The translations under genes were made by a program, and so were the position numbers. Below, piece by piece: positions 5,750 through 30,777 of a stretch of 64,000 bases of DNA. The stretch spans positions 4,403,501 to 4,467,500 of the forward strand of contig NZ_CP108088.1 in NCBI RefSeq assembly GCF_036192275.1. Reading direction: 5' to 3'. The stretch is from Streptomyces sp. NBC_00250. Its GTDB lineage: Bacteria > Actinomycetota > Actinomycetes > Streptomycetales > Streptomycetaceae. Under the pieces are notes generated by a model. It made no database searches. It was not told the DNA's origin and saw only the letters and a list, made by a program, of their open reading frames with translations. Position 1 is the stretch's first letter. Every line of letters begins with the position of its first letter.

Positions 5750-6084
5750 TGTCCCATGACGCACCGCCGTCCGTGGTTTGTCCACAGCCCCGGCAAATTG
5801 TGTGACCGGAGGGGTACGGAGGCGCGGGGTGGCGCATGAGGGGGGTGCGGCCACAACGGTGCAGGTCAGGGGGGCCGCGCCGGGTTCGGTCGGGGGTCTG
5901 AATCGGGAGTGTTCCGGTCCTTGCTCCGATCGGGGGGCGCACCGTACGGAACTCCCCCTTCTGAATTGACCCGGACTCAACTATGTTCGTACTTCGTCGG
6001 GGTGTCGGATGGGAGCGCGTGGACCGAAGCGCTCGTCGACCGGAAGCCCCGTATCAGGGCGGGGAGTCTCCGGGGGGAGACATC
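5750..6084. other. Divergent intergenic region ndh/tetR
   Basis: No gene is supported in these 335 bases. On the plus strand TTGACC (5966-5971) followed after 18 bp by TACTTC (5990-5995) is a plausible promoter for the TetR gene, giving a leader of about 80 nt. I see no clear promoter for ndh. Confidence 0.45.
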
Positions 6085-6900
6085 ATGAGCGGGGGAACGC
6101 TTATGCAGATTCAGGATTCACGATGGCAGACGGGCGCCGGCACGGCGACCGTGGACGACGGCCCGCACGCGGGCGTCGTCGGCTCGGAGCGCAATGGCGC
6201 ACCGGTGGCCGGCGGCAGGTCCGCGCCGCTGCGGGTGGACGCCCAGCGCAATCTGGAGCACGTCCTGCGCGCCGCGCGCGAGGTGTTCGGCGAGCTCGGT
6301 TACGGGGCTCCGATGGAGGACGTGGCACGCCGCGCCCGTGTCGGGGTCGGCACCGTCTACCGGCGCTTCCCGAGCAAGGACGTGCTGGTCCGGCGCATAG
6401 CCGAGGAGGAGACCTCCCGGCTGACCGAGCAGGCGCGGGCCGCGCTGGGCCAGGAGGACGAGCCGTGGTCGGCGCTCTCCCGGTTCCTGCGGACCTCGGT
6501 GGCCTCGGGCGCGGGCCGGCTCCTTCCGCCGCAGGTGCTGCGGGTGGGCGTGGACGACGCCACGGTGCTGCCGTTCGGTGGCGAGTCCCACGACGCGGAC
6601 GACGCGGCGCGGGTGCCGTACCAGCGGGGTCTCGGCGAGCAGACCGACGCGCGCGTGGTCGCGCCGCGGGCCGTACCGGCCGAGGAGAAGGACGACTCGG
6701 GCGCCGCGGAGCTCCTTGAGGTGGTCGGCCGGCTGGTCGACCGGGCGCGTGAGGCGGGTGAGCTGCGGGCCGATGTGACCGTGGCGGACGTTCTCCTCGT
6801 CATCGCCACCGCCGCCCCGGCCCTGCCGGACGCGGTGCAGCAGGCGGCGGCCTCGACCCGGCTCCTCGACATCCTGCTTGAGGGGCTGCGCTCCCGGTAG
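6085..6900 (+). CDS. TetR-family transcriptional regulator
   Basis: The protein has about 271 residues. A disordered N-terminal tail of roughly 45 residues precedes the TetR helix-turn-helix (about 50-100): ILxxAxxxFxExGYGAPMEDVARRARVGVGTVYRRFPSK. The ligand-binding half is poorly conserved and ends in ASTRLLDILLEGLRS. A strong GGGGGGAGA four bases ahead of ATG 6085 decides that start; ATG 6103, also behind a G-rich run, is possible. Divergence from ndh suggests respiratory or redox control, but this is inference. An unusual tandem repeat begins 10 bp after the stop codon. Confidence 0.88.
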   Translation: MSGGTLMQIQDSRWQTGAGTATVDDGPHAGVVGSERNGAPVAGGRSAPLRVDAQRNLEHVLRAAREVFGELGYGAPMEDVARRARVGVGTVYRRFPSKDVLVRRIAEEETSRLTEQARAALGQEDEPWSALSRFLRTSVASGAGRLLPPQVLRVGVDDATVLPFGGESHDADDAARVPYQRGLGEQTDARVVAPRAVPAEEKDDSGAAELLEVVGRLVDRAREAGELRADVTVADVLLVIATAAPALPDAVQQAAASTRLLDILLEGLRSR

Positions 6901-6990: not shown

Positions 6991-7164
6991 CTTTTGTGGT
7001 CCGGGCGGACCAACGAGCATGACACGAACGTGTGAGCGGTTACGCCCGGATACACGAAGTCGCCCCGGACGAGTGGTAAGTGGACGCGGCGCTTCGGCGT
7101 GCCCGCGCTCTGTGGCAGGCTTGGTCGGTGTTCGGGTCTGAGCATGCGTACGGGGGCTTCCGCG

Positions 7165-9243
7165 ATGAGCGGTGACGGTCGGGACGAGCCGCTGGGAAAC
7201 GGCGGCACCGCGGAGACCGGGGGCACGCCCTCACGGCAGGTGCCCAGCCAGGGCGGGCCGGGAGGCCTCTCCGGCGCACCAGGTCCGGTAGAGCCGCTCG
7301 ACGCGAGCGTGCCGCAGCAGCGTGAGGGCAAGGCGTCCGGGTGGGGCACCGCTTCCGGGGCTGCCGCGGGGGCGGCCTCCACGACCTTCGCCGACCACGC
7401 CGGGGACGGGACGACCGGGAACGCGGCGACTGTCGAGGACGACGAGCCGCACGACACCGTGCTTCCGCCGCCCCTCGAACTGCCGCCCTCCGACGCCGAG
7501 CTCGTCCAGCTCATGCGGGAGGGCGACGACTCCGCGTACGAGGAGCTGTTCCGCCGCCACTCCGAGGCCGTGCGCCGGTACGCGAGAACCTGCTGCCGGG
7601 ACGCGCACACCGCCGACGACCTGACCGCCGAGGTCTTCGCCCGCACCCTCCAGGCGGTCCGGGGCGGCGCCGGGCCCGAACAGGCCGTACGCGCCTATCT
7701 GATGACCACCGTCCGGCGGGCCGCGGCCAACTGGGCCAGGACCCAGAAGCGGGAACACCTGGTCGAGGACTTCGCCGTGTTCGCGGCGGACGCCGCCCGT
7801 TCCTCCGAGGTCTCCGACCAGGACACGATGGACCTCGGCGCCGACGTCCGGGCCATGCACGAGGCCGAGCAGTCGCTCGCCATGCAGGCCTTCCGCTCGC
7901 TGCCCGAGCGCTGGCAGGCCGTGCTGTGGCACACCACCGTCGAGGAGGAGTCCCCGAGCGAGGTCGCGCCGCTCTTCGGCCTGACCGCCAACGCCACGGC
8001 CGTCCTCGCCAGCCGTGCCCGCGAAGGCCTCAAACAGGCCTACCTCCAGGCCCACGTCAGCCAGTCCCTGACCGCCGGCGGCGACTGCGCCCGGTACGCG
8101 GACCGGCTCGGCGCCTACGCGCGCGGTGGGCTGCGGATGCGCGCCGAGCGCGGACTGCGCAAGCACCTGGACGAGTGCGCCAAGTGCCGGCTCGCCGCCG
8201 GTGAGCTGGCCCATGTCAACGCCGGGATCCCCGCGCTGCTGCCCGTCGCCGTCATCGGCTGGTTCGCCGCCGGGTACTCGCTCAAGGCCGCCGGTGTCGT
8301 CGCCGGTGGCGCCGTCGGCGCGGGCGCGGCCGGTGCGGCCGCGGCCGCCTCCGGGACCTCCGGGGGCGCGGCCTCCGGTGGTGCCGCCGCCGAGGGTCTC
8401 GGGGCGCCGGCGAAGGCCGGTGTCGCGGCGGCCGTGGCCGTCGCCGCGGCCGCCGGGCTCGTCTGGGCCATGGCCGGGGATCCGCAGCCCGTGGCCGCGC
8501 CCCGGCCCACGCAGCCCGTGGTCACCCCCGTCGTACCGGCGGAGCCCGCACCCCCGCCGAAGCCGACGTCGAAGCCCGTACCGCCGCCTCCGCCCGTACG
8601 GTCCGAGCCGCCGGCACCCACGCCGACGCCGACCCCGACACCCACGCCGACTCCCGCGAAGCCCTCCCCGGAGCCGACTCCCGCGAAGCCGTCCCCCAAG
8701 CCGACGCCGCCGCCGAAGCCCAGCCCGACGCCGACACCCACGCCTACGCCTACGCCGAGTCCCGAGAAGCCCTCGCAGAAGCCGACGCCGCCGCCCGCGC
8801 CGCCGAGCGTCTACCAGGTCAACGAGCTGGACTACGGGATCTTCGGCGACGGCTCCAAGCCCGAGGTCGCCCTCTCGGACAGCAGCTGGATGTGGCAGCG
8901 CAACGGCCTCTCCCTCGGCGGTACGCGGTACGCGCACGGGGTGAGCGTCCACGCGCCCTCGTCCCTGCTGATCGACCTCAACCGGCAGTGCACGAGTTAC
9001 GACGCGATCGTCGGCGTCGACGACCTGAGCGCCCTGCTCGGTGTCGGCGGCGTCCGCTTCTCCGTGTACGGGGACGAGGAGCGGCTCTGGCGCTCCGACG
9101 TGGTCCGGGCCGGCGATCCGCCGATCCCGGTGCACGTCGACATCTCCGGCCGCAGCACGATCCGGCTGGTGGTGGAGGAGCACACGCCGTTCGGGCGGGC
9201 CGCGGTCGCCGACTGGGCGCAGTCCCAGATCAGCTGCTCCTGA
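7165..9243 (+). CDS. ECF sigma factor fused to zinc finger, membrane anchor and NPCBM domain
   Basis: A single protein of about 692 residues. Sigma region 2 (about 110-190, EELFRRHSEAVRRYARTCCR...DDLTAEVFART) and region 4 (about 245-305, LPERWQAVLWHTTVEE then a degenerate HTH) are followed by a zinc-finger-like HLDECAKC segment typical of anti-sigma factors. Next come hydrophobic stretches (a likely transmembrane helix is VAAAVAVAAAAGLVWAMAG), a Pro/Thr/Lys-rich linker of about 110 residues with PTPTPT repeats, and a C-terminal NPCBM-like carbohydrate-binding domain (VYQVNELDYGIF...RYAHGVSVHAPSS...GRSTIRLVVEEHT). The design suggests a membrane-tethered sigma factor sensing glycans outside. 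ATG 7165 has GGGG nine bases upstream; ATG 7144 is possible. Confidence 0.88.
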   Translation: MSGDGRDEPLGNGGTAETGGTPSRQVPSQGGPGGLSGAPGPVEPLDASVPQQREGKASGWGTASGAAAGAASTTFADHAGDGTTGNAATVEDDEPHDTVLPPPLELPPSDAELVQLMREGDDSAYEELFRRHSEAVRRYARTCCRDAHTADDLTAEVFARTLQAVRGGAGPEQAVRAYLMTTVRRAAANWARTQKREHLVEDFAVFAADAARSSEVSDQDTMDLGADVRAMHEAEQSLAMQAFRSLPERWQAVLWHTTVEEESPSEVAPLFGLTANATAVLASRAREGLKQAYLQAHVSQSLTAGGDCARYADRLGAYARGGLRMRAERGLRKHLDECAKCRLAAGELAHVNAGIPALLPVAVIGWFAAGYSLKAAGVVAGGAVGAGAAGAAAAASGTSGGAASGGAAAEGLGAPAKAGVAAAVAVAAAAGLVWAMAGDPQPVAAPRPTQPVVTPVVPAEPAPPPKPTSKPVPPPPPVRSEPPAPTPTPTPTPTPTPAKPSPEPTPAKPSPKPTPPPKPSPTPTPTPTPTPSPEKPSQKPTPPPAPPSVYQVNELDYGIFGDGSKPEVALSDSSWMWQRNGLSLGGTRYAHGVSVHAPSSLLIDLNRQCTSYDAIVGVDDLSALLGVGGVRFSVYGDEERLWRSDVVRAGDPPIPVHVDISGRSTIRLVVEEHTPFGRAAVADWAQSQISCS

Positions 9244-19959: not shown

Positions 19960-20013
19960 CCGAAGAAAGCCACCGGGGGCGCTAATCCTTCGCCCCCTGT
20001 CGGTGGGGGTCGT

Positions 20014-20019
20014 TAGGGT
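20014..20019 (+). promoter_or_regulatory. -10 element giving a leaderless prsW mRNA
   Basis: TAGGGT is followed by exactly seven bases and then GTG 20027, the classic actinobacterial leaderless arrangement. No clear -35 is seen. Confidence 0.45.
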
Positions 20020-20026
20020 CGCTCAC

Positions 20027-21355
20027 GTGTCCTACCCCGCCCCCACCGCAGCCGGCACCGCTCCCGTCCCCCACCGGGACACCGAGGAGCCGGCCTTCCC
20101 GGCCGCCGCCGACCGGTCCCAGTGGCGCTACCGGCCCCGCCGGGCCTTCTGGCGCAGCCGGCTGGTCCGGGCCGTCACCGTCATCACCGTGCTCGCGATC
20201 TGCGCCCTGTTCATCCTCGGGCTCGTCCGCGAGCAGACCGGCACCGAGGGCTTCCTCGTCGGACTGGGCCTCGCGGTGCTCCCCGTACCGCTGCTGATGG
20301 CGGCGTTCCGCTGGCTCGACCGGGTCGAGCCGGGGCCGTGGAAGAACCTGCTGTTCGCGTTCGCCTGGGGCGCCTTCGCCGCCGCGCTCGTCGCGATCCT
20401 GGCGAACTCCTTCGCGGTCCGCTGGATCGCGACGGCCACCGCGGATCCGGCCTCGGCGGACACCCTCGGCGCGACGGTCGTCGCGCCCGTGGTGGAGGAG
20501 AGCGCGAAGGCCGCCGCGGTCCTGCTGCTCTTCCTCTTCCGCAGGAAGCACTTCGGCGGGCTCGTCGACGGCGTGGTGGTCGCCGGGTTCACCGCGACCG
20601 GCTTCGCCTTCACGGAGAACATCCTCTACCTCGGCAACGCCTTCGGCGAGGACCAGGAGTTCGGCTCCACCGGCCTCGGCTCGGTGACCGCCGCGACCTT
20701 CTTCGTCCGGGTCGTGATGTCGCCGTTCGCGCATCCGCTCTTCACCGTGCTCACCGGCATCGGCTTCGGCCTCGCCGCCCTCGCACCGCGCGGCAGGCGA
20801 CTCCGCCGGGTGCTGCTGCCGCTCGCCGGGCTGCTGCTCGCCATGACCCTGCACGCCGCGTGGAACGGCTCGGCCACCTTCGGCGGCCCGCTGGCCTTCT
20901 ACGCGGTGTACGGAGCGCTGATGGTCCCGGCCTTCGGCCTGCTGACCTGGCTCGCGGTGTGGAGCCGGCAGCGCGAGCTGCGCACGATATCCGGCGAGCT
21001 CCCGGCGTACGCGGCGGCCGGCTGGATCTCCCCCGCCGAGCCGCTCGCGCTCGCCTCGATGCGCGCCCGCCAGCTGGCCCGCTCCTTCGCCGCCCGTACG
21101 TACGGCCCGCCGGCCGCGCGGACCGTCGGCGAGTACGAGTCGTTCGCGACGACCCTCGCGTTCCTGCGGGACCGGGCCCGGCGCGGCACGGCCGGGCCCG
21201 ACTTCCCGGTCCGGGAGCAGGAGTTGCTCCACCACCTGTGGCAGCGCCGGGAGGTCGCCTCTCCCGCCCTCACGTACGCGGCACGGGCGACGGGCCAGGT
21301 GTGGGCGCCGCCGCAGTACCTGGACTACGACGGCTTCAACCCGTACCGGCGTTAG
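20027..21355 (+). CDS. PrsW-family intramembrane metalloprotease
   Basis: 442 residues with about eight transmembrane helices between residues 45 and 310 and a soluble C-terminal tail. The family's metal-binding signature is present: VVEESAKAAAVLL (EExxK), GFAFTENILYLG (FxxxExxxY-like) and later SPFAHPLFTVLTG and MTLHAAWNG with conserved His. B. subtilis PrsW cleaves the anti-sigma factor RsiW, so this protein probably cleaves a membrane protein here too. The tethered sigma factor at 7165-9243 is an attractive but unproven substrate. The GTG start is set by the -10 element seven bases upstream. It converges on the aldo/keto reductase gene. Confidence 0.87.
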   Translation: MSYPAPTAAGTAPVPHRDTEEPAFPAAADRSQWRYRPRRAFWRSRLVRAVTVITVLAICALFILGLVREQTGTEGFLVGLGLAVLPVPLLMAAFRWLDRVEPGPWKNLLFAFAWGAFAAALVAILANSFAVRWIATATADPASADTLGATVVAPVVEESAKAAAVLLLFLFRRKHFGGLVDGVVVAGFTATGFAFTENILYLGNAFGEDQEFGSTGLGSVTAATFFVRVVMSPFAHPLFTVLTGIGFGLAALAPRGRRLRRVLLPLAGLLLAMTLHAAWNGSATFGGPLAFYAVYGALMVPAFGLLTWLAVWSRQRELRTISGELPAYAAAGWISPAEPLALASMRARQLARSFAARTYGPPAARTVGEYESFATTLAFLRDRARRGTAGPDFPVREQELLHHLWQRREVASPALTYAARATGQVWAPPQYLDYDGFNPYRR

Positions 21356-22418: not shown

Positions 22419-23582
22419 TCAGAGGCTGAGGCCCTTGGAGCGGAGCCACTCCGCCGGGTCGAGGCCGGAGCCGCCGGGCGTGTGGACCTCCATGTGGAGG
22501 TGGGCGCCGGTGACGTTGCCGGTGGCGCCGACGCGGCCGATCGTCTCGCCGGTGCCCACGGTCTGGCCAGCGGAGACCGTCATGGACGACATGTGGGCGT
22601 ACCAGATCTCGGTGCCGTCCTCCAGCTCCAGGACGACCCGGTAGCCGTACGAGCCGGACCAGCCGGCCGACTTGACGGTGCCGCCGTGGACCGCCTTGAG
22701 CGGGGTGCCGGTGGGGGCGGCGAAGTCGAGGCCGGTGTGGTAGCCGGAGGACCACATCGAGCCGGACTGCATGTAGGTGGCGCTGAGGCTGTACGAGGAG
22801 AGCGGCAGCGTGTAGCTCGCGGCGAGCTTGGCGAGGCGCTCGGCCTCGGCCGCCGCTTCGGCCTTCGCCTTGGCCTCGGCTTCCGCCTTCGCCTTGGCTT
22901 CCGCCTCGGCCTTGGCCTTCGCCTCGGCGGCCGCCTTCTCCGCGGCGTCGGCCTTGGCCGCGGCCTCCGCGGCCGCCTTCTCGGCCGCCGCCTCCTCCGC
23001 CGCGGCCTTGTCGGCGGCGTCGGCGGAGGCCTGCTGCTGCTCGGCCTGCTGGAGGATGCGGGCGCGCAGGGCCTCGCCGGCGTTGCCGGTCGCGGCCTTG
23101 GTGGCCTGACCGTCCCGGCTGACCAGGGATGCCTGCGTGACCTGCGTGGCCTTCGTGCCCTGTTCGTCGTCGGCGGTGGCGTACGTGGCGACGGTGAGCG
23201 GGTTCGGGTTGGCGCGGGCCGCGGTGACCGTCTCGTGGGACTCCTCGGGGAGGAGGTCACCGACACCGGGGAGGTCGTGGGCGTCCGGCAGGTGGAGGTC
23301 CGCGAGGTCGGGAAGGTCCGGGAGCGAAATGGCGACCGGGGGCTTCTCCTGCGCGGTGGCGAGGCCGCCGGCGCCGACGGCCGCGATCACACCGACACCG
23401 AGGACGGTGGAGGAACGGGCGAAGTTGGAGCGCTGCTTGACGACACGGTGCCGGCCGCCGGAGCGGCTCTCGGCGCGGAGGGAGCCCTCGGTGGGGTTCC
23501 ACTCGGTGTCCGGGGCGGCAGGACCCGCACCACCACCGAAGGCATCGAAGGGGGCTTCGGGTGCGGGAGTGTTGGACGCCAC
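22419..23582 (-). CDS. M23-family peptidoglycan endopeptidase with coiled coil
   Basis: 387 residues. A cytoplasmic Arg-rich N-terminus (RHRVVKQRSNFARSS) is followed by a signal/anchor helix (STVLGVGVIAAVGAGGLATA, about 57-77), a linker, and an Ala/Glu/Lys coiled coil (about 185-260) with repeated AKAEAEAKA units. The LytM domain has HTGLDFAAPTGTPLKAV (metal His and Asp) and GAHLHMEVH. It probably cleaves peptide cross-links or activates another hydrolase. GTG 23582 has AAAGGAGC eight bases upstream. The 5' leader contains a c-di-AMP riboswitch, as is common for Streptomyces cell-wall hydrolases. Confidence 0.93.
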   Translation of the reverse strand: MASNTPAPEAPFDAFGGGAGPAAPDTEWNPTEGSLRAESRSGGRHRVVKQRSNFARSSTVLGVGVIAAVGAGGLATAQEKPPVAISLPDLPDLADLHLPDAHDLPGVGDLLPEESHETVTAARANPNPLTVATYATADDEQGTKATQVTQASLVSRDGQATKAATGNAGEALRARILQQAEQQQASADAADKAAAEEAAAEKAAAEAAAKADAAEKAAAEAKAKAEAEAKAKAEAEAKAKAEAAAEAERLAKLAASYTLPLSSYSLSATYMQSGSMWSSGYHTGLDFAAPTGTPLKAVHGGTVKSAGWSGSYGYRVVLELEDGTEIWYAHMSSMTVSAGQTVGTGETIGRVGATGNVTGAHLHMEVHTPGGSGLDPAEWLRSKGLSL

Positions 23583-23607
23583 GGGGGCGCGCTCCTTTCC
23601 TTCCTTC

Positions 23608-23730
23608 TCGCCTACCGGGTTAGCTGACGGGTTCGGAGCAGGAAGGTCTCCTACGGGCTCGTCGCACAGGTGCGAAGGGCCCGATTCACCCCAAGTAGTG
23701 GTTCCCCGGTTCCTTTTCAGGATTCGGCGC
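23608..23730 (-). promoter_or_regulatory. c-di-AMP (ydaO/yuaA-type) riboswitch
   Basis: On the minus strand, GCCGAATCCTG (near 23721-23728), GGGGAACCAC, TTGGGGTGAATCGG (23683-23690 core) and GAACCCGTCAGCTAACC ending in CGGTAGGCG (23608-23635) appear in the order of the ydaO consensus. The element sits about 10 bp upstream of the Shine-Dalgarno sequence of the M23 peptidase gene. The family is known to switch off cell-wall hydrolase genes (for example rpfA in S. coelicolor) when c-di-AMP is high. Confidence 0.92.
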
Positions 23731-23940
23731 GTGCGCACGGTGCCGCCTCTTGCGACGGCTGGGACGACCGCGCTGCGTTATCGAACGTTAATAGACAGGG
23801 GGTGCCGATTCCAAGCTGTTCCTCTTGATCATTCATTGAATTGAGGGGGAATGGCCCGAGTTGACCCCCCTTCAGCAAGGAGTGCCGAAACCCTCGCGAT
23901 CTGACGTTATGTCAATTGTTATCGCAGTGACACCTCGCGA
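23731..23940. other. Upstream region of the riboswitch; possible terminator of the phosphatase gene
   Basis: No gene is supported. The promoter of the peptidase/riboswitch transcript should lie near 23760-23810, where an AT-rich block with CGTTATCGAACG (palindromic) occurs. GGGGG (23845-23849) and CCCCC (23865-23869) could pair as a weak terminator for the leftward SpoIIE gene. Confidence 0.4.
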
Positions 23941-29666: not shown

Positions 29667-29791
29667 GTGACGATCCACGGTGGTCGGGGGCACCGACCGG
29701 GGAATCCCGGGCGTTCGCCGGGGGACGGCGTGGATCTCACGCATCGGGACTGCGAGAGCCGCCGTCACCGCTTCCGCCACCTCCGCGCCGG

Positions 29792-29818
29792 TGTCACATC
29801 GGCGCGGTTCCATCCGTC
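29792..29818 (+). promoter_or_regulatory. ECF41-type promoter (autoregulation)
   Basis: TGTCACA (29792-29798), exactly 16 bp, then CGTC (29815-29818). These are the -35 and -10 elements published for ECF41 sigma factors, and they sit directly upstream of an ECF41 gene. Confidence 0.8.
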
Positions 29819-29856
29819 ATGAGGACATGACGGGACGCGAACGGGGAGATCGACGA

Positions 29857-30777
29857 GTGGACAAGGACCGCGAGAACCACACCGACACGGACCTGCTGGC
29901 CCGGCGCTTCGAGGCCGACCGGGGGCACCTGCGGGCGGTGGCCTACCGGATGCTGGGCTCGCTCAGCGAGGCCGAGGACGCCGTCCAGGAGGCCTGGTTC
30001 AAGCTCAGCCGCAGCGACGTCAGCGCGGTGGAGAACCTCAGCGGCTGGCTGACCACCGTCGTCGGCCGCGTCTGCCTCGACATGCTCCGCTCGCGCGGCT
30101 CGCGCCGCGAGGACCCGCTGGAGTACTACGTCCCCGACCCGATCGTCCGGGTCGCCGACACCACCGACCCGGAGCACGCAGCCGAGGTCACCGAGTCCGT
30201 CGGCCTGGCGCTCCTCGTCGTCCTGGACACCCTGGGACCGGCGGAGCGGCTCGCGTTCGTCCTGCACGACATGTTCGCCGTCTCCTTCGACGAGATCGCG
30301 CGGATCGTCGACCGCACCCCGGCCGCCACCCGCCAGCTCGCCAGCCGCGCCCGCCGCCGCGTGCAGGACGCCACCCCCGCCGCCGGGCCCGACGCGCGCC
30401 GCCAGCGGGAGATCGCCGACGCCTTCCTCGCCGCCGCCCACGGCGGCGACTTCGAGGGGCTGCTCGCCGTCCTCGACCCCGACGTGGTGCTGCGCGCGGA
30501 CGGCGGCCGGACCCTCGCGGCCGTCTCCAAGGTCGTCCGGGGCGCCGAGGCCGTCATCTCGCAGGCGCTCACCTACGCCAAGTTCCGTACGGGAGCACTG
30601 CGGATGGTCGTCAACGGCGCACCCGCGGTCCTGTCGGTCTCCAACGGACGCCCGGCCGCACTCATGTCGTTCACCATCTCCGGGGACCGGATCGTCGGGC
30701 TCCAGATCCTGGCGGATCCGGAGCGGCTCGCCGCGCTCGGCCTCTCGGAGGAGGACCTGGCCCGCGCCACGTACTGA
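29857..30777 (+). CDS. ECF41-group sigma factor (SigJ-like)
   Basis: 306 residues. Sigma region 2 (LARRFEADRGHLRAVAYRML...EDAVQEAWFKL) and region 4 (LGPAERLAFVLHDMFAVSFDEIARI) precede a SnoaL/NTF2-like C-terminal domain (about 190-300) that in ECF41 proteins replaces a separate anti-sigma factor. The inter-region WLTTVVGRVCLDMLRSR and a weakened DGGGK-like motif (DGGRT) are present. GTG 29857 is preceded by GGGGAGA at seven bases; ATG 29827 is possible. ECF41 genes normally adjoin a COE-type (carboxymuconolactone decarboxylase, oxidoreductase, epimerase) gene. None is here, and the rhodanese gene is divergent. Confidence 0.88.
   Translation: MDKDRENHTDTDLLARRFEADRGHLRAVAYRMLGSLSEAEDAVQEAWFKLSRSDVSAVENLSGWLTTVVGRVCLDMLRSRGSRREDPLEYYVPDPIVRVADTTDPEHAAEVTESVGLALLVVLDTLGPAERLAFVLHDMFAVSFDEIARIVDRTPAATRQLASRARRRVQDATPAAGPDARRQREIADAFLAAAHGGDFEGLLAVLDPDVVLRADGGRTLAAVSKVVRGAEAVISQALTYAKFRTGALRMVVNGAPAVLSVSNGRPAALMSFTISGDRIVGLQILADPERLAALGLSEEDLARATY

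Follow-up and report, generated by a model that had tools for sequence, protein, structure and literature searches.

An ECF52-type sigma factor fused to an anti-sigma zinc finger and an NPCBM head in Streptomyces sp. NBC_00250: conservation, predicted topology and relatives with other heads

Results

Gene layout and domain composition

The window analysed here is a stretch of 64,000 nucleotides from Streptomyces sp. NBC_00250 (contig NZ_CP108088.1). An unbroken reading frame extends in it from an ATG at 7165 to a stop at 9243 on the forward strand and encodes a product of 692 amino acids (Table 1). There is no stop anywhere in frame from 7099 to 9243 (+), and a longer GTG start at 7099, which would give a reading of 714 amino acids, is possible. 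When the window was aligned with 78 loci (n = 79), ATG 7165 was found to sit inside a conserved stretch, for which reason it is favoured as the start; conserved blocks are also present upstream of the gene. The opposite strand carries a frame of 650 amino acids, and GC content by codon position favours the gene on the forward strand. The gene is present as a single copy, the four other matches to its sigma part in the window genome being weak (best 1e-5).

In a domain search of the translation, the ECF sigma model TIGR02937 matched residues 146-314 (profile positions follow the numbering of the 714-residue reading) at 70.1 bits (cut-off 42.9; 1.7e-19), and Sigma70_r2 (2.2e-12, Pfam scan), zf-HC2 (8e-5; 23.1 bits against a cut-off of 22.2) and NPCBM (4.2e-29, Pfam scan) were likewise above cut-off. 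The separate region 4 model Sigma70_r4_2 reached only 0.0085, under its cut-off, so that the call of region 4 depends on TIGR02937. A sequence-only reading of the window had proposed that one frame holds a sigma factor followed by a zinc finger, a transmembrane segment, a linker rich in Pro and Thr and an NPCBM domain, and this is borne out by the frame and the profile matches.

Table 1. Coordinates of the sigma factor gene, its predicted domains and two neighbouring genes in the window.
Feature	Position	Strand	Basis and remarks
ECF52-type membrane-tethered sigma factor (tether predicted), SCO4117 ortholog	7165..9243	+	692 aa; frame, profiles, synteny
ECF sigma core, regions 2 and 4	7534..8040	+	TIGR02937; Sigma70_r2 at 7546-7752
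ZAS-type anti-sigma zinc finger (zf-HC2)	8086..8190	+	8e-5; invariant ligands 47/47
Conserved hydrophobic block behind zinc finger	8224..8286	+	read as a putative anti-sigma helix, presumably non-spanning
Single predicted membrane helix	8416..8478	+	crude hydropathy and comparison of relatives
Pro-rich linker, ~110 aa	8479..8808	+	taken as extracytoplasmic; differs between relatives
NPCBM head, CBM51 fold	8809..9240	+	divergent signature, two invariant Cys
TetR regulator, AtrA (SCO4118) ortholog by synteny	5983..6900	+	neighbour, outside the mechanism
PrsW-type protease gene	20003..21355	+	PF13367 7.7e-55; syntenic, candidate releaser

Neighbourhood and identity

The TetR gene lies directly upstream of the sigma gene, and an NDH2-type gene is divergent from it; among the Streptomyces loci (best 80 of 197) the TetR match was found in 80/80 and NDH2 in 79/80. 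SCO4119, like the NDH2-type gene here, encodes an NADH dehydrogenase. In S. coelicolor, SCO4117 is located downstream of atrA (SCO4118), and this synteny is reported to be kept across the Streptomyces examined, with the exception of S. avermitilis (PMC5826349). By synteny, we identify the gene as the ortholog of SCO4117. The latter is described as the first ECF52 sigma factor to have been characterised and as having a zinc finger, a transmembrane region, a proline-rich extension and a carbohydrate-binding domain (PMC5826349). The features of ECF52 found here are an ECF sigma domain, a zinc finger, a predicted transmembrane helix, a Pro-rich extension, a C-terminal domain of carbohydrate-binding type and a TetR neighbour. 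Profiles, domain order and synteny agree in placing the protein among the ECF52-like one-protein fusions of sigma factor, anti-sigma domain, membrane helix and carbohydrate-binding module, as had been suggested from the sequence.

Other features of the window were recorded. A c-di-AMP riboswitch (RF00379, 102.9 bits, 23594-23739, reverse strand) is located on the 5' side of an M23 peptidase gene (22419-23738, reverse strand), whose product is probably a cell-wall hydrolase. A second ECF sigma factor gene (29680-30777, forward strand) has an ECF41-like layout, its C-terminal part matching a SnoaL-like domain weakly and below cut-off. Many draft contigs among the best 80 of 197 loci seem to end about 7 kb upstream of the sigma gene, and judging from these contig ends a repeat, for example an rRNA operon, may lie just before the window start.

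Conservation of the fusion

The best 80 of 197 loci are all from Streptomyces. In 60 of these 80 the fusion is unbroken; in another 12 the gene runs off a contig end, and the remaining 8 are broken, with no single frame holding both parts (L018, L020, L027, L046, L048, L052, L055 and L060). The expectation that no stop or frameshift parts the domains thus held for the open frame of the window and for these 60 relatives. A chance fusion or a local frameshift product had been considered and was ruled out by the same count. Runs of N occur in the broken loci L055 and L048. In L018 (11077-11536) and L046 (11142-11429) the linker region appears in the assemblies as a self-inverted stretch, likely an assembly fault; L060 contains only a 52-base self-inverted stretch, and no cause was found for the breaks in L020, L027 and L052. 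For the S. clavuligerus ortholog of SCO4117, a stop that is perhaps a sequence error has been reported (PMC5826349).

Two alignments were used. The first comprised the window and 46 loci, after 33/80 loci, some of them cut or masked, had been dropped by a simple filter on pattern and length and L027 had been removed by hand for its disturbed frame; the second comprised the window and 62 loci, L027 and L060 having been removed by hand from the 64 found. In the first alignment the ZAS ligands (Cys, then HxxxCxxC) were invariant in 47/47 sequences, and at E <= 0.001 zf-HC2 matched 46/47, Sigma70_r2 47/47 and Sigma70_r4_2 13/47.

A search of the gene's own phylum found relatives at E <= 1e-20 in 12/246 genomes, 8 of them of the same genus, the window's own genome included; since only 10 candidates were scored per genome at this threshold, distant relatives are undercounted. 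The relative in genome G242 is a short sigma factor without zinc finger or helix, and the same-genus ortholog in G044 (L112 627-2534) keeps sigma factor, zinc finger, helix and linker and has no recognisable NPCBM domain.

Membrane topology

Orthologs contain a hydrophobic block just behind the zinc finger and a clearer one about 60 residues further on. With approximate hydropathy scales used as plain sums, the crude insertion score in the window protein was 4.4 for the post-ZAS block, the worse value, and 1.0 for the later helix. In five relatives with ricin or LamG heads (L105, L106, L108, L091 and L092), charged residues interrupt the first block, whose score is 7 to 11; the later helix comes to about 0 and is preceded by basic and followed by acidic residues. 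Exceptions are L094 (2.9 for both segments), L100 (2.7 for the first block) and L102 (several weak segments). In orthologs with an NPCBM head, the later helix has weakly charged flanks.

We infer that the first block is the last helix of the anti-sigma domain and the second the sole membrane span. Because in the relatives the first block is charged and the later helix has basic and acidic flanks, a single span is favoured, which would probably place the head outside the cell. A head inside the cell was rejected as unlikely, given the charged first block of the relatives and the two invariant Cys of the head. An AlphaFold2 model of the part comprising sigma factor, ZAS domain and helix was poor (mean pLDDT 54, pTM 0.28), so that cis inhibition cannot be read from it.

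The NPCBM head

The head keeps the fold and the sequence family of CBM51/NPCBM. An Asp-His pair present in 23/23 other NPCBM domains is missing from 63/63 ECF52 heads, the Asp being absent; the pair was judged on sequence, and the 23 comparison domains, 20 from the strongest Pfam matches and three from the window's own genome, lean canonical and are presumed to belong to secreted enzymes. The ECF52 heads have an invariant set of their own, W37, R39, N66, R91, W102 and R127 (63/63; numbered from window base 8785), together with two Cys (63/63). The first Cys is common to 22/23 of the other NPCBM domains; the second was seen only in L001 and L002, the fetched stretches of the others mostly ending before it. 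A limited literature search found no published mention of this altered signature.

The invariant set points to a specific partner, and the head probably has a specific ligand that differs from what other NPCBM domains usually bind. Of the earlier proposal that the head binds cell-wall glycan, the family assignment stands, but because the fold is kept and the Asp-His pair is gone, the cell-wall glycan as ligand is unproven. W37, R39, R91, W102 and R127 mark where tests of binding by the head should focus.

Relatives with other heads

Related proteins with sigma factor, zinc finger and helix were found to have ricin-type heads (L087, L091, L094, L105, L106, L108 and L111), a LamG head (L092) or Ig-like heads (L100, and L093 below cut-off), and the Pfam scan recognised no head in L088, L089, L090, L102 and L109; L101, L107 and L110 were read by eye, outside that scan. 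For L091, L092, L105, L106, L108 and L111 the sigma part was assigned by alignment to the window protein, without a Pfam report, and in several other-headed relatives the zinc finger was assigned by its motif. A relative in G267 (L103 645-1559, reverse strand) ends soon after the zinc finger, has no membrane helix and is possibly a soluble version. Two tethered relatives (L090 1-722 and L093 1-2253) are located on plasmids of Paenarthrobacter and Arthrobacter, near genes related to SpaA-type pilins.

Candidate proteases

PrsW is encoded 10.8 kb downstream of the sigma gene, and this is the only PrsW found in the window genome. It occurs in 8/8 same-genus genomes, at 9-14 kb from the sigma gene in 7/8; in G048, one contig carries the sigma part and another an NPCBM piece (a 159-aa frame), which we take to be the rest of its sigma gene, and PrsW lies about 11 kb from the NPCBM piece. 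Among the best 80 of 197 loci, 29/80 contain PrsW, alongside unrelated genes, and many loci end before its position is reached. Over the phylum, PrsW was found in 10/12 genomes with relatives. It was not found in G242 or in G090, and of these two only G090 has tethered proteins, two relatives without an NPCBM head; in G267 some 0.49 Mb separate PrsW from the nearest relative, and in G278 the distance exceeds 1 Mb. The distance of about 11 kb noted earlier is correct, but as a clue to release it is weak, and we rejected proximity as evidence: the whole Streptomyces block is conserved, unrelated genes included, whereas in G267 and G278 the tethered relatives lie far from PrsW and the search of G090 yielded none. 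M50 proteases were found in 12/12 genomes with relatives and also in 14/14 control genomes, so that their presence says little; an M50 protease is a possible, unspecific candidate for site-2 cleavage.

Discussion

The protein is a real and well-conserved member of a previously described kind, and both its architecture and a proposal of its proteolytic release are already in print. What is added here is a survey of the conservation of the fusion, its topology, the position of PrsW, the signature of the head and the alternative heads of its relatives. SCO4117 influences antibiotic production and sporulation, and this comparison narrows the search for its signal and its protease.

We give a probability of about 0.6 to a one-protein model comprising a single span, inhibition by the ZAS domain in cis, an envelope event sensed by the head and proteolytic release. 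Judging from the relatives, the sigma factor and its fused ZAS domain would lie inside the cell, the Pro-rich linker would pass through the wall and the CBM51-fold head would be outside. At rest, by analogy with the ZAS family, the sigma domains would be kept inactive in cis by the ZAS domain and the helix that follows it. When the head reads an envelope event, the stalk would become open to attack by a site-1 protease; the sigma part would then be freed by a site-2 protease, perhaps of the general M50 type, and its zinc finger would be removed or opened. The freed sigma factor would act on genes of development and secondary metabolism, as shown by the SCO4117 deletion in S. coelicolor, in which development is reported to be delayed and some antibiotics reduced or delayed (PMC5826349). 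The model is supported by the domain order, by the TetR gene immediately upstream, in the place that atrA takes at SCO4117, and by the invariant ZAS ligands (47/47). Release by proteolysis has been proposed for such fused sigma factors in a review (PMC8999054); the need for it, also raised in the sequence-only reading, agrees with the model published for the SCO4117 kind and is probable here. The developmental role is the one part demonstrated, and that in a relative; topology and release are deduced.

The alternatives concern different parts of this model. That the post-ZAS block and the later helix both span the membrane, which would leave the head in the cytoplasm, is highly improbable. The block is hydrophobic in the NPCBM-bearing orthologs, in L094 it scores like the later helix, and a review passage describes one to two transmembrane helices (PMC8999054), but the charges in several relatives, the two scores of the window protein and the extracellular traits of the protein (two invariant Cys, a Pro-rich linker, a CBM fold) argue for one span. 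Activation might also proceed without cutting, with the head or membrane tension opening the ZAS clamp and the sigma factor working while tethered or under regulation by phosphorylation. SCO4117 is reported to be phosphorylated at Ser15 and Thr231, and a sigma-only truncation, said to have a milder effect than the deletion, gave no clear gain of function (PMC5826349); that strain was still delayed and not hyperactive, which, by analogy, also speaks against a simple scheme in which cutting yields a fully active sigma factor. We consider such a switch unlikely, since the related fused sigma factor IutY is activated by proteolysis (PMC8999054) and a linker of wall length suits a cut stalk.

PrsW as the dedicated releasing protease is quite unlikely: it is the sole PrsW found in the genome and keeps its distance within the genus, the NPCBM piece of G048 included, but so does the neighbourhood as a whole, and the tethered proteins of G267, G278 and G090 have no PrsW gene found near theirs, although their heads are not NPCBM domains and they test the wider group rather than ECF52 proper. 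As for the signal, the head might be a wall anchor or strain gauge rather than a ligand sensor, the stalk being pulled by wall damage or growth. The loss of the Asp-His pair in 63/63 heads and the G044 ortholog without a head are in line with this, but the six invariant residues suggest a specific partner, and we regard an anchor as rather unlikely.

More tentatively, and at a little less than even odds, ECF52 may represent one form of a one-protein surface sensor with exchangeable heads, the CBM51-fold head having been re-specified to a new ligand in Streptomyces. If so, a fixed chassis of sigma factor, cis-acting ZAS domain, one helix and wall-spanning linker would take CBM51-fold, ricin, LamG and Ig-like heads; the Streptomyces head would have exchanged the signature of other NPCBM domains for an invariant Trp/Arg face of its own, and would read a developmental wall or surface partner outside the known range of CBM51 ligands. 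Glycosyl hydrolase or carbohydrate-binding domains have been predicted in some ECF52 and ECF53 proteins (PMC10766802), and since such variety is already in print, our list of heads is a survey and no discovery; a narrow search found no published report of a fused tethered ECF sigma factor with a ricin head in Actinobacteria.

Among known systems, the CBM51 modules of PDB entries 7jrl/7jrm, 2vmg and 8pvs come from glycoside hydrolases and a glycopeptidase, and the Asp-His that 7js4 and 8pvs show within a DHADW-type motif is missing from the ECF52 head. The ECF53 and ECF48 groups are described in a review as having a fused ZAS domain and one or two transmembrane helices (PMC8999054). IutY of Pseudomonas putida (ECF243) likewise has a membrane anti-sigma domain fused behind an ECF sigma factor; it belongs to Gram-negative iron signalling, and the passage on it mentions no wall-spanning linker or carbohydrate-binding head, but it is activated by proteolysis through Prc and RseP and is the closest shown case for release (PMC8999054). 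RS19240 of S. venezuelae, compared by its table entry (r2, r4, NPCBM; PMC11256431), is alike in its composition of sigma factor and NPCBM domain. The nearest counterpart is SCO4117 itself, for which, going by its published description (PMC5826349), the domain order and the atrA neighbour are alike and nothing essential was found to differ.
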